Shown in pieces: positions 12,828-54,042 of a stretch of DNA of 64,000 nucleotides; position 1 is the stretch's first letter, and each line of letters opens with the position of its first letter. The stretch comes from Limosilactobacillus reuteri (GTDB lineage Bacteria > Bacillota > Bacilli > Lactobacillales > Lactobacillaceae). The translations under genes and the position numbers were made by a program. The stretch covers positions 1-64,000 of the forward strand of contig NZ_JAJGTZ010000029.1 of NCBI RefSeq assembly GCF_020784725.1. The letters run 5' to 3'. Below the pieces are notes generated by a model. The model had not been told where the DNA came from and did not search any database. It was given only the letters and a program-made list of their open reading frames with translations.

Positions 12828-14159
12828 TTAATGCATCCGTCGTTGATCCATTCGTTTAACAATATATAAGATTGGTAATCCTACGATGACGATTCCGATA
12901 AAAAGAATTACACCAGCCGGATCATTCATAACTTCACTTACTAGGACAAAGATTCCACCAGCAATCGCAATAATTGGCACTAAGGGATAAAGCGGTGTGC
13001 TGAATGGACGTGGTCCCTTATTTCTATGTCTTAAAATGAAGATCCCAAAGAATGCTAAAAGATAAAAACAATAAACAGTAAATACACACAAATCTGATAA
13101 GTGATCAGGGTCAAAGAAGAACATCATAGCCGTTGCAAGAACGATAATAAACATCGTTGCTACTACTGGCGACTTCCCCTTTGGCGTAATATATGCGAGA
13201 TAACGTGAAAATGGCAAATCATGACGACGCGCCATTGCGTATACAATCCGGGGAAAAGTAATCATTTTCCCGTTTAAAGTCCCCATCATCGAAATAATAA
13301 TTCCGGCTGACAGCAATTTTCCCCCAATTGCTCCAAAGGCTTTTACTGCTAAATATGCAGTTGCATTTTCGCCTAGCCGATGAATAGTATTAACTGGAAG
13401 GAACTTAAGAATCCCAACAGTAATTAAAGTATAAATAATAAGAACAGCAGTAATCCCTAAAATAATAGCTCGTGGCAATAATTTTTGGGGATTTTTCATT
13501 TCTCCTCCAAGATTTGCAATCAAAATCCACCCATCATAACCAAATAAAGTTGCTAAAACTGCTACTCCAAAACCACCAGTTGATTGGTGAATTTCGGTAA
13601 CTGTTTGACCAAAAGCATTTTGATGTCCCCAGAACAAGCCAAAGATAATAATTGCTGCAATTGGAATCATTTTTCCGGCAGTCGTAATAATCGAAAAAAT
13701 TGCACCAACTTTATTTTCAAAAAGGTTCATTACTCCAATTGCAATCACTGTAATCACTGCTAAAGGTATTCGCCACTGGGGTCCTAAACCAAAGAAGTTT
13801 GCCATTAAAATACTCATAAATCCGGCAACCGAAGCAATAATTGCTGGTCCATAAACAATTACTTGCATCCACCCGGCTAAAAATCCTAAAAGGCGACCAT
13901 ACAAGTTTTCAATATAGACATATAATCCCCCGGTATATGGCATCTGAGCACCAATTTCCGCCACTGTTAATCCACCAGTTAAAGTAATAATTCCTCCAAA
14001 TACCCAGGCAGCAATCGCAAGCGTAGATGTACCAGCACTATCAAGAACAGATCCTTGTTTAAAGAATATTCCCGATCCAATAATTGTCCCAATAACAATC
14101 GAAATAGCGGACCAAAAGCCAAGCGACCTTTTTAGTTCATCTGTTGGTTGTTGATTCAT
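12828..14159 (-). CDS. APC-family amino-acid permease, LAT/SteT-like (probable serine/threonine transporter)
   Basis: Twelve-helix transporter of 443 residues. GFWSAISIVIGTIIGSGIFFKQG in helix 1, GGLTVAEIGAQMPYTGGLYVYIENLYG and FGYDGWILIANLGGEMKNPQKLLPRAI place it in the L-type (LAT) branch, near the SteT serine/threonine exchanger. Three ATG codons in a row precede the coding sequence; the third (14159) is seven bases from GGAGG and is chosen. Family alone would not give the substrate, but the leader encodes a Ser-rich peptide (four Ser codons in a row) coupled to a terminator, which argues that transcription rises when charged tRNA-Ser is short. A serine import role is therefore inferred. 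Own promoter overlaps the end of uvrA. Confidence 0.85.
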   Translation of the reverse strand: MNQQPTDELKRSLGFWSAISIVIGTIIGSGIFFKQGSVLDSAGTSTLAIAAWVFGGIITLTGGLTVAEIGAQMPYTGGLYVYIENLYGRLLGFLAGWMQVIVYGPAIIASVAGFMSILMANFFGLGPQWRIPLAVITVIAIGVMNLFENKVGAIFSIITTAGKMIPIAAIIIFGLFWGHQNAFGQTVTEIHQSTGGFGVAVLATLFGYDGWILIANLGGEMKNPQKLLPRAIILGITAVLIIYTLITVGILKFLPVNTIHRLGENATAYLAVKAFGAIGGKLLSAGIIISMMGTLNGKMITFPRIVYAMARRHDLPFSRYLAYITPKGKSPVVATMFIIVLATAMMFFFDPDHLSDLCVFTVYCFYLLAFFGIFILRHRNKGPRPFSTPLYPLVPIIAIAGGIFVLVSEVMNDPAGVILFIGIVIVGLPILYIVKRMDQRRMH

Positions 14160-14196
14160 CATCATTCCTCCATTCTTAATATTAGGCAAAATAAAA

Positions 14197-14258
14197 ACTC
14201 GGGATATCATCTATTAATACAATTTGGTCACGCCAAATGATTAATAGAGAACCCGAGT
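14197..14258 (-). terminator. Attenuator terminator in the permease leader
   Basis: Minus strand: ACTCGGG (14258-14252) pairs with CCCGAGT (14203-14197), with an internal CTATTAAT/ATTAATAG helix and a TTTGG/CCAAA tip; T-rich tail follows. It sits upstream of the permease start. Its 5' arm ACTCGG can instead pair with CTGAGT at the end of the leader ORF, giving an antiterminator. Confidence 0.75.
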
Positions 14259-14290
14259 CTGTATAAACCTATCGATTGGGTACACCAAAA

Positions 14291-14362
14291 TCACTCAGCC
14301 TTAATAGAATTAGAGGCTGAGGAGGAAGAAAACTGTTGATTTTGATTATTAAAAAATAACAT
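14291..14362 (-). CDS. Serine-rich leader peptide (23 residues) of the permease attenuator
   Basis: Reads M-L-F-F-N-N-Q-N-Q-Q-F-S-S-S-S-A-S-N-S-I-K-A-E then TGA. Six of 23 residues are Ser, four of them consecutive (codons TCT TCC TCC TCA). GAGGG lies about eight bases before the ATG. The Ser codons overlap the 5' arm CTCAGCC of a hairpin whose 3' arm GGCTGAG ends at the stop codon. A ribosome stalled on Ser codons would open that hairpin and let GCTGAGT capture the 5' arm of the terminator; a ribosome reaching the stop would mask it. The logic is that of classical amino-acid attenuation. The peptide itself probably has no function beyond being translated. Confidence 0.75.
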   Translation of the reverse strand: MLFFNNQNQQFSSSSASNSIKAE

Positions 14363-14398
14363 CTCTTTTCCCTCGTTTCGTGTACTTTAATTTTCATT

Positions 14399-14427
14399 AG
14401 AATACCATTAGAAGAATTAGATTGCAA
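14399..14427 (-). promoter_or_regulatory. Promoter of the permease leader
   Basis: TTGCAA (14422-14427), 17-base spacer, TATTCT (14399-14404), right after the uvrA stop codon. It places the leader ORF about 30 bases into the transcript. Confidence 0.6.
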
Positions 14428-17292
14428 CTACTTTTTTTGCTTAGCTTCTCGTTCTTCTGCCCATTTTTGATCACGTGCGAGCATCTCTTTTAAATATTTA
14501 CCAGTGTAACTTCCCTTTACTTCTGCTACTTGCTCTGGAGTTCCAGTGGCGACAACATTGCCTCCACCAGCTCCTCCTTCAGGGCCAAGATCAATTAACC
14601 AGTCCGCTGATTTTACAACATCTAAATCATGCTCAATTACTAAAACAGTATTTCCCGCATCGACTAACCGCTGCAGGACAGCTAATAAGCGTTTGATATC
14701 ATCCATGTGCAATCCAGTAGTTGGCTCATCTAAAATATAGAAGCTCTTACCGTGAGACTGACGGTGAAGTTCAGCTGCTAATTTCATTCGTTGAGCTTCC
14801 CCACCTGAAAGAGTAGTTGCCGGTTGACCAAGGTGAACATAACCCAACCCAACGTCTTCAATAGTTTGCAGTTTGCGCTTAATTTTCGGAATCGCACTAA
14901 AGAAGTCAAGAGCTTCAGAAACAGTCATATTAAGGACCTCAGCAATATTCTTGCCCTTGTATTCAACTTCAAGGGTTTCAGAATTATAACGTGTTCCATG
15001 ACAAACTTCACATGGCACATAAACATCTGGCAAGAAATTCATCTCAATTTTAATAATTCCGTCCCCACGGCAAGCTTCACAGCGTCCTCCCTTAACGTTA
15101 AAGCTAAAACGTCCCTTAGTATATCCATGCATTTTAGCTTGGTTGGTTTGAGCAAATAGTTCACGAATGTCATCAAAGACTCCCGTATAAGTTGCCGGGT
15201 TGCTTCGTGGAGTACGACCAATTGGCGATTGATCAATATTGATAACTTTTTCAATATTTTCAACCCCACTAATCGACTTGTACTTACCAGGTTTTGCGGA
15301 ATTATTATTCAGTTTTTGGGCTAAAACTCTTTTGAGAATCATATTAACAAGGGTTGACTTTCCTGATCCAGAAACCCCCGTTACGCAAATAAACTCACCA
15401 AGTGGAAAATCGACTGTAATATCCTTTAAGTTATTTTCCGCCGCTCCTGTAATAGTAATTTTCTTACCACTACCTACTCGACGCTCCTGAGGTACTGGAA
15501 TAAATTTTTTCCCTGATAAGTATTGGCCAGTTAACGACTTCCGTGATCGCATAATTTGCTTAGGAGTTCCGGCAGCCATCACTTGGCCCCCGTTTTCACC
15601 AGCTCCAGGGCCAATATCGACAATGTAATCGGCCGCGCGCATTGTATCTTCATCATGCTCTACGACAATCAGCGTATTGCCAAGATCACGCATGGCCTTT
15701 AACGACTCAATCAAACGGTCATTATCTCGTTGATGAAGTCCAATTGACGGCTCATCGAGAACATACATTACTCCTGACAAATTAGAACCAATTTGCGTTG
15801 CTAACCGAATCCGCTGAGCTTCTCCCCCTGAAAGAGTTCGAGCTGAGCGACTTAAAGTTAGGTATTCAACACCAACATTTTTCATAAAAGTTAATCGGTC
15901 AATGATTTCTTTTAAAATTGGCTTAGCAATTTCATTTTTTTGTGCAGAGAGTTTGATACTCTTAAAGAATTCAAGAGAATCACTAATTGATAAAGCGGAA
16001 ACTTCACCGATATTTCGCCCATCAATCTTTACTGCTAAGGCCCGCTGGTTTAGCCGGTAACCATGACAAACCGGACATGGAAGCTCAGTCATATACTTTC
16101 TCATTTGTTCCCTTGTAAAATCTGAGTTAGTCTCCCGGTATCGTCGGCTAATATTATTGATAACACCTTCAAATGGCACATCGACATCCCGAATGCCACC
16201 AAAGTCATTCTCATAATGGAAGTGGAATGGTGTTTCACCATTACCGTACAAAATCTGTTGTTGTTGCTTTTTAGGCAACTTATTGAAAGGAGTATCCATA
16301 TCAATGCTAACCGACTTGCAGAATTGTTCTAACATTTGTGGATAGTATTGCGATGAGATTGGATTCCAGGGAACAATCGCCCCTTCTCTTAAGGTCTTTG
16401 TTTGGTCAGGAACTACTAAATCAATATCTACTTCAAGTTTCAATCCTAACCCTTCACATTCTGGACAAGCACCAGTAGGAGCATTAAAGGAGAATAGCCG
16501 TGGCTCTAATTCACCAACTGTAAAGCCACAAATGGGACAGGCATATTGTTCAGAAAATGGAATTGGGTCTCCCCCAATCACATCAGCAATTGCATAACCA
16601 TCGCTTAAGCGGAGAGCCGATTCAAAGGAATCAAATAACCGCGCCCTAATTCCCTCTTTGATGATAATTCGATCAATTACGACATTAACCGTATGTTTTT
16701 TATTTTTATCTAATTCAGGGACTGAATCAAGATCATAAGTTTCGCCATCTACTTGAACCCGGACAAATCCCTCACGTTTAATTGTTTCAAAAACTTTCTT
16801 TTGTGTTCCCTTTTTATCACGAACAACCGGCGAAAGAATTTGCAGGCGTGTCCGTTCAGGCAATTCTAGTACCCGATCTACCATTTGTTCTGGTGACTGA
16901 CTAGTAATTGGAATATTATCGTTCGGACAAATTGGTGTCCCAACCCGCGCCCATAGTAAGCGTAGAAAATCGTTAATTTCAGTCACGGTTCCGACCGTTG
17001 AACGCGGATTATGGGAAGTTGTTTTTTGGTCAATTGAAATTGCCGGAGATAAACCGTCAATTGAGTCCACATCTGGCTTATCCATCTGTCCTAAAAATTG
17101 TCGCGCATAAGCCGATAAACTTTCCACGTAGCGTCGTTGTCCTTCTGCGTATAATGTATCAAAAGCTAAAGAACTCTTTCCAGAACCTGATAGGCCAGTT
17201 ACAACGACTAACTTGTTTTTCGGAATAGTAATATCAATATTTTTTAGGTTATGAGCCCGTGCCCCATGAATTATGATCTTATCATTTGCCAC
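14428..17292 (-). CDS. uvrA: Excinuclease ABC subunit A
   Basis: DNA-damage recognition ATPase of nucleotide excision repair; loads UvrB at lesions. The 954-residue product has two ABC modules: Walker [10 protein letters not shown] near residue 31-39 and GVSGSGKST in the second half, two LSGGEAQR signatures, and zinc-binding cysteines (CPICGF...CPECEG and CEACRGDG...CEVCHG). Translation starts at GTG (17292), with GGAGGG upstream. It lies 15 bases after uvrB in a two-gene operon with an SOS box upstream of uvrB. The next promoter, for the permease leader, starts immediately after its stop codon. Confidence 0.97.
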
Positions 17293-53772: not shown

Positions 53773-54042
53773 AAATACCCATCCTTAACTTAATAAGGAC
53801 GAGTATTTTCGCGGTGCCACCTTAATTTACTATCCACTCACATGGATAGCCTCAGGAAGTTCATCATAAACTTCGATACTTGATAACGGATATCAACCGA
53901 CAAGTGCTTAGTTTTCCCTCACGCTTGTTGTATTTTTTTTAAGACCATCTTCAAAGCAATTTGTAATTTTCTTCCACCACCCGAAAACTCTCTTAATACT
54001 ACATTGCTTTTACTCTTCTTAAACGACTAATATTTAATTGTT
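53773..54042 (-). promoter_or_regulatory. T-box leader, probable Met specifier (AUG)
   Basis: Minus strand, 5' to 3': basal helix TTTAAGA/TCTTAAA, AGTA on the 5' side of the specifier loop, GAA-G-ATG-G on its 3' side (specifier ATG at 53946-53948), then the T-box core AAGGTGGCACCGCG (53810-53823) and a terminator whose 5' arm AATACTCGTCCTTA also supplies CCTTA for the antiterminator helix with TAAGG. Uncharged tRNA-Met would prevent termination upstream of the mtnU-like gene. GAT (Asp) overlaps the specifier and is the main alternative; neighbouring genes favour Met. Confidence 0.85.

Follow-up and report, generated by a model that had tools for sequence, protein, structure and literature searches.

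The 64,000-nucleotide stretch of Limosilactobacillus reuteri DNA analyzed here (contig NZ_JAJGTZ010000029.1, positions 1 to 64,000; the window) contains, on its minus strand, a leader device at positions 14427-14193. It lies between uvrA, which was confirmed by profile search and whose stop codon is at 14430-14428, and the gene for a LAT-type amino-acid exchanger (AA_permease_2 in Pfam; 12828..14159), which it would control. The device begins with a promoter (TTGCAA-17-TATTCT with an extended -10; 14399..14427) that overlaps the motif TTCTAATGGTATTCTAAT (14413-14396). There follow the 5' arm of a long-range helix designated P1 (GUACACGAAA; 14376..14385), a Shine-Dalgarno sequence (GAGGG; 14370..14374), and a 23-codon leader peptide open reading frame (ORF), MLFFNNQNQQFSSSSASNSIKAE (14291..14362; ATG at 14362, stop at 14293-14291). 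The ORF holds the control codons, Ser-Ser-Ser-Ser-Ala-Ser-Asn-Ser (14306..14329), as well as the 5' arm (B, CUCAGCCU; 14314..14321) and the 3' arm (B', AGGCUGAG; 14294..14301) of a protector hairpin, which in this leader is the helix CTCAGCCT/AGGCTGAG (14321-14314/14301-14294). Part of B' and the next bases form the 5' arm of an antiterminator (GCUGAGUGAUU; 14299-14289), the 3' arm of P1 (UUUGGUGUAC) lies at 14280..14289, and the 3' arm of the antiterminator (T, AAUCAUUUGGC; 14232..14242) lies within the 5' half of an intrinsic terminator hairpin with a U-run (14193..14259; -26.0 kcal/mol). The ATG of the exchanger gene, at 14159, stands behind GGAGGA. It is highly probable, in our judgment, that this leader acts by ribosome-mediated transcription attenuation in response to charged tRNA-Ser.

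A sequence-only reading had proposed attenuation of the trp/his type keyed to the Ser codons, on the strength of a promoter, a 23-codon ORF with a Shine-Dalgarno sequence and the run F-S-S-S-S-A-S-N-S, a hairpin, and a terminator. Every one of these is present, and the proposal is supported by the Ser leaders of 35 of 46 orthologues, by compensatory changes in B:B', by a candidate B':T helix in each of the 35, and by the position of the computed stall window. The leader RNA also folds far better than its dinucleotide shuffles, none of which reached it in 200 trials (z, -5.97). A simple consensus scan of the window reported neither the leader promoter, which by our own count matches 8/12 where the scan threshold was 9, nor the terminator. 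A Ser run alone is not rare, SSSS being encoded by two short ATG ORFs of the window, and its significance rests on relatives.

A search of 50 genomes of the genus for the permease gave some match in all 50 and a strong match (at least 570 bits) in 48. Two partial matches among the latter (G015 and G045) were left out, and the stretch upstream of the 46 remaining orthologues was read for 420 nucleotides (nt), or for whatever the contig contained. An intact leader ORF with a Ser run was present in 35 of the 46; in L044 and L045 the run consists of Ser and Thr. The sequence-only reading had suggested aligning the leader in relatives, and had held that permeases kept without the Ser codons would speak against it; these 35 genus orthologues retain the run, and an intact leader is missing from 11 (nine with no leader, one with a frameshifted remnant, and one with a deletion), so that the proposal passes the greater part of this check. 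The N-terminus of the leader peptide varies, and the ORF, its Shine-Dalgarno sequence, and a stop codon in or near B' are retained. From L013 onward no uvrA C-terminus was seen in the stretch fetched, which argues that the leader travels with the permease and not with uvrA.

Codon columns of the 35 leaders were anchored on the TCA codon (position 0). Ser occupies positions -3, -2, -1, 0, and +2 in 30, 33, 35, 35, and 33 of 35 leaders, respectively, and position +4 in 27 of 34. Position +2 is coded by TCT in 22 leaders, TCA in 7, AGC in 3, AGT in 1, and ACA in 2, so that Ser is kept across both of its codon boxes. In frame, the residue entropy is 0.32 at +2 (versus 1.63 and 1.09 in the other frames) and 0.81 at -3 (versus 1.37 and 2.20). 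As expected of an attenuator, the run at the control position is conserved as amino acid. The codons TCC TCA at -1 and 0, in or adjoining the B helix, are invariant in all 35 leaders and are therefore uninformative. TCN codons account for 199 of 218 Ser codons in the leaders, whereas the figure for 44 long window ORFs is 647 of 964; this bias may stem in part from the helix. In Bacillus subtilis under serine starvation, TCN codons carry denser ribosomes (PMC3862929).

Helices were compared in alignments A1 and A2, which hold 30 of the 35 leaders (the near-copies L002, L004, L019, L021, and L031 were omitted). B:B' is 99.5% paired over the 30 leaders, with both sides changed at three pairs (11 such cells), so the protector helix shows the compensatory changes for which the earlier proposal had suggested a test. 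None of 500 shuffles reached the percentage, the number of double-change cells, or the covariation score, and sliding the partners gave a much lower score. The clade II values for B:B' of L025-L028 from the contiguous-helix comparison were not used because the B anchor was misplaced. For P1, the sequence has been replaced and the pairing kept in clades III-VI (nine rows; 0 of 32 to 34 cross-clade swaps as good); in clade II (four rows) it was no better than cross-clade swaps, and the P1 of L029 was equalled by 45 of 200 shuffles. By longest-helix counts alone, B':T, P1, and B:B' are all weak in many rows.

The part of the earlier proposal that did not hold is the identity of the antiterminator partner. 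Pairing of the 3' arm of the hairpin with ACTCGG (CTGAGT/ACTCGG, 6 bp) is present here, but just 5 of the 30 aligned leaders have all six pairs. What is conserved instead is pairing with AATCATTTGGC at 14242-14232, over 11 bp, in the 5' half of the terminator. In 18 of the 30 leaders the helix GCUGAGUGAUU/AAUCAUUUGGC is complete at the same columns of the alignment; the remaining 12 rows retain 5 to 10 of its 11 pairs and, in this region, have contiguous helices of their own of 9 to 11 bp. A contiguous candidate B':T helix of 9 to 14 bp was found in all 35 Ser leaders, the pairs in other clades being GUGGUUGGG/CUCAAUCAC or CUCAACCAC, AAGCAGUUGAG/CUUAACUGCUU, UGGUUGAGUGA/UCACUUAACCA, and AACUGGUUGA/UUAACCAGUU. 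At most 10 of 100 shuffles were as good in 33 of the 35 rows, the rows of one clade not being independent. Because long interior loops were allowed, gapped duplex energies with open windows hardly told own from swapped partners (mean values of -17.4 and -16.7, respectively), and only a minority of rows stood clearly above shuffles; contiguous helices were taken instead. A terminator-like hairpin is present in 35/35 Ser leaders (-19.8 to -36.7 kcal/mol). By computation and comparison, with some weaker rows, the protector, antiterminator, and terminator helices are mutually exclusive.

For computed switching, each leader was folded to just past T with 29 nt masked at the position of the ribosome, which gives equilibrium folds of partial transcripts. 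In the window leader an antiterminator probability of 0.27 in the absence of a ribosome rises to 0.96 when the A site is on the first Ser codon and to 0.98 when it is on TCA, and it is 0.00 at the stop codon. Over the 35 Ser leaders the mean is 0.81 to 0.93 with the A site at -3 to +3, 0.42 to 0.43 at -4 and +4, 0.20 to 0.28 at -5 to -11, 0.27 at +5, near 0 from +6 onward, and 0 with a ribosome at the stop codon. The window of effective stalling thus coincides, on average, with the Ser run.

These results suggest the following course of events. RNA polymerase would make the leader, with a ribosome following on the 23-codon ORF. When serine is sufficient, the ribosome would reach the stop codon and cover B', and the terminator would form ahead of the permease gene. 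When serine is scarce, the ribosome would stall on the Ser run and cover B, leaving B' free to pair with T, the segment AAUCAUUUGGC of the terminator's 5' half, and transcription would continue into the permease gene. In the absence of translation, B:B' would form and transcription would terminate. P1 would close the translated stretch and may favor B:B'. Attenuation as the mechanism is very likely, on the observed basis of sequence conservation, covariation, and computed structure switching, and the specificity of the leader for serine is likely; from these we infer stalling, termination, a response to serine, and serine transport. The best solved relative of the permease, which a profile search places in AA_permease_2, is 6f2g (280.6 bits), which we take to be the Ala-Ser-Cys exchanger BasC. 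Import of serine by the permease is plausible, and LATs are exchangers (PMC6472337).

Several observations weigh against this interpretation. The number of doubly changed B:B' pairs was reached by 14 of 500 shuffles and the number of pair types by 128 of 500. The register of B':T is the best helix picked for each sequence, and it is only moderately above shuffles sequence by sequence (as good in 7 of 100 for the window, 30 of 100 for L016, and 16 of 100 for L013). Cross-clade swaps of B':T often equal the natural pair (up to 13 of 31 in L027 and L028 and 7 of 13 in L014), and two cruder scores barely separate own from other partners in most rows. The antiterminator leaves the lower stem of the terminator unpaired, and the terminator is the more stable of the two (-26.0 versus about -14.4), so timing must decide between them. 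The computed antiterminator probability stays low with a stall at the first Ser codon in 5 of 35 leaders (L012, 0.14; L026, 0.17; L044, 0.22; L022, 0.31; and L045, 0.49) and exceeds 0.5 already without a ribosome in 7 of 35 (L013, L016, L018, L019, L021, L046, and L029, the highest at 0.81). Finally, 9 of the 46 orthologues (L034 and L036-L043), from several lineages, have no leader within 420 nt, L006 keeps only a frameshifted remnant, and L008 is deleted for the entire intergenic leader region, the uvrA stop codon abutting the permease ATG (near 1488-1505). On the permease tree, in which 14 of 54 inner branches are poorly supported, the 11 rows without an intact leader are scattered (four changes), which seems to reflect repeated loss or replacement by other control. 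L008 is a natural leaderless form.

A covariance model built from 30 Ser leaders found a second locus in the same genome (E value, 8e-7; L092:800-960, contig C38). Its leader, MQIYNKSIIHHLTSTSTTTTITVVE, carries a Thr run, TSTSTTTT, ahead of a different permease, 22% identical to the first, which among NCBIfam models scores best with the threonine/serine transporter ThrP (556.5 bits, under the curated cut-off of 850). By the mechanism proposed above, this sister copy would control a ThrP-like permease. Its orthologues were read in 19 further genomes of the genus, and alignment A3 holds 21 of 22 loci, 20 from the genus and 1 from another genus (the divergent L089 was omitted). B:B' and a B':T helix of 8 to 13 bp are present in 21/21 Thr leaders, in which T is a near-repeat of B (CUCAACCAC in most), and a terminator-like hairpin is present in 20/21; the exception, L099, is a stretch that ended at a misplaced permease start. 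In the constrained folds the mean antiterminator probability of the 21 Thr leaders is 0.86 to 0.97 at -3 to +3 versus 0.30 to 0.51 from -5 upstream, and their effective stall window contains Thr and Ser codons.

The two leaders of this genome also share a motif. TTCTAATRRTATTCTAAT (window 14396-14413 and the L092 promoter) is a direct repeat with an 11-bp period lying over the -10. Its only exact occurrences in the 2.0-Mb genome are the two ahead of these leaders; when as many as two mismatches are allowed it has six sites, versus three for a backward control. It could be a regulator site or a mere product of common descent. Near a third such site (one mismatch, contig C29), no leader was seen by eye.

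It is conceivable that the device senses slow translation in general, caused by a drug, cold, or a stringent state, and that the Ser run is merely a handy stall site. The B. subtilis multidrug transporter bmrCD is under ribosome-mediated transcriptional attenuation (PMC4191407), which gives this idea a precedent. It is unlikely here, however, because Ser is conserved through dissimilar codons, because the Thr run of the sister copy precedes another permease, for which ThrP is the best family (below the curated cut-off), and because the genes downstream of the Ser and Thr leaders are both amino-acid transporters.

We give still less credence to the idea that the codons are conserved only as an RNA or DNA element, in the protector hairpin or in pairing with a Shine-Dalgarno sequence, and that the peptide is incidental. 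TCC TCA, fixed in 35/35 in or beside the B helix, would fit such an element, as would the minimum-energy fold of the leader, in which CCUCC is paired with the leader's own Shine-Dalgarno region. Yet synonymous changes, TCN to AGY among them, occur at codons -3, -2, and +2, where conservation is higher in frame than out of frame, and the reading frame, its Shine-Dalgarno sequence, and its stop codon persist while the N-terminus changes. In L006, moreover, an insertion (163-1280), which looks like an IS30-type transposase, lies immediately after the promoter's TATTCTAA, and the leader separated from its promoter is out of frame. This frameshift fits relaxed selection on a leader that has lost its promoter.

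T-boxes are common in this genome (26 matches, 13 of them above the family cut-off). serS and thrS each stand behind a T-box match below the cut-off (61.8 and 56.5 bits), and it thus seems that the ligases respond to Ser and Thr charging through T-boxes and the uptake genes through leader peptides. Another amino-acid permease of this genome, at L206, lies behind a T-box match; its best model, below cut-off, is a D-serine/D-alanine/glycine transporter. T-box control of an APC transporter has a precedent in ykbA, which we take to be SteT. The B. cereus group ykbA orthologue carries a Thr T-box and is, like the permease proposed here, under tRNA-charging control, but its leader binds tRNA directly and involves no translating ribosome (PMC2494555). 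For the Ser leader, a riboswitch that binds tRNA or another ligand, be it a T-box or an unknown class, would be in keeping with these T-boxes but is hardly credible, because with Rfam 15 covariance models the two leader loci match no family, including the T-box (RF00230), at E values up to 1 and because the codons and helices account for much of the conservation.

To our knowledge, no attenuator keyed to serine has been described, and no serine/threonine leader-peptide attenuator in lactobacilli was among the matches listed from the full-text literature, outside of which most subscription papers lie. Ribosome-mediated attenuation keyed to serine has its closest models in the trp and his attenuators of enteric bacteria, which combine a protector, an antiterminator, and a terminator as the Ser leader does. 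They likewise have a leader ORF with codons for the sensed amino acid (trp, PMC1183508); in contrast, the Ser leader controls a transporter, uses Ser, has its antiterminator partner in the inner 5' arm of the terminator, and has an extra helix, P1, enclosing the ORF. The earlier description of such attenuation as uncommon in Firmicutes is fair, but it has been demonstrated there: Rli60, the ilv-leu leader of Listeria, and the ilv leader of Staphylococcus aureus (PMC5864092 and PMC5794164) are ribosome-mediated attenuators that differ in having branched-chain codons and in controlling biosynthesis operons. His leader peptides predicted before hisS paralogues of bacilli are also Firmicutes leaders found where other species have T-boxes, but they precede tRNA ligase genes and use His codons (PMC2965389). 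The SinR sensor of B. subtilis likewise reads serine supply through TCN codons; these, however, lie inside the regulator's own gene, with no attenuator (PMC3862929).

At E values of up to 0.1, the Ser model matched 44 of 50 genomes of the genus (a count that takes in Thr as well as Ser copies and some matches on the opposite strand), 32 of 397 genomes of the family (5 of 40 genera; Thr copies included), and 9 of 395 genomes of the order, all of them in Lactobacillaceae (Thr copies included). The Thr model, which cross-matches Ser copies, matched 45 of 397 family genomes (7 of 40 genera) and, within the genus, 44 of 50. Reading of the loci placed Thr leaders ahead of ThrP-like permeases in g1, g5, g8, g13, g18, and g22; g18 is probably Weissella, on the basis of a 100% identical permease, and its Thr leader is mostly TTTTSTT. 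In four Weissella genomes that were read, a LAT lies behind a mixed leader (TTSSDSTT, STSSDST, or TSRSTS). At L175 and L176, two convergent permease genes adjoin, one with the Thr leader TTTTSTT and the other with the mixed leader TTSSDSTT. A scan for Ser or Thr runs within 330 nt found none in the loci of Furfurilactobacillus, Dellaglioa, and Levilactobacillus.

Of 24 loci read for a second Weissella LAT-type permease, 15 (L279-L289, L291, L292, L294, and L295) have a leader rich in Asn or Asp, with up to seven consecutive Asn and a terminator. These Asn-rich leaders are perhaps a third specificity. Their B':T pairing is above nearly all shuffles in 11 of 15 (at most 4 of 200 as good); in constrained folds the mean probability is 0.49 on Asn codons versus 0.32 elsewhere, with the Asn run mostly upstream of the best window.

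On balance, we favor the view that Lactobacillaceae have a family of homologous, movable, ribosome-mediated attenuators on amino-acid transporters, in which the run (Ser, Thr, mixed, or perhaps Asn in Weissella) is reprogrammed to match the transporter, much as specifier codons are in T-boxes, while serS and thrS keep T-boxes. If so, the codon run could serve to label otherwise unassigned transporters by substrate. In lactobacilli of the gut and vagina, leader peptides appear to set the uptake of Ser and Thr, and T-boxes to control the matching tRNA ligases. The related Ser and Thr copies form a natural series on how the codon run sets specificity and offer a way to predict transporter substrates.

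Two further features were noted. Upstream of L025-L032, L034-L036, L044, and L045 is a conserved stretch, CCCTATGAC...AGACATAGAGAAGG..., which is presumably the leader of a divergent ribosomal protein gene. The only T-box of the window above the gathering score (RF00230), at 53792-54036, is a leader ahead of another ORF, which we take to encode a protein resembling carbon-nitrogen hydrolase.

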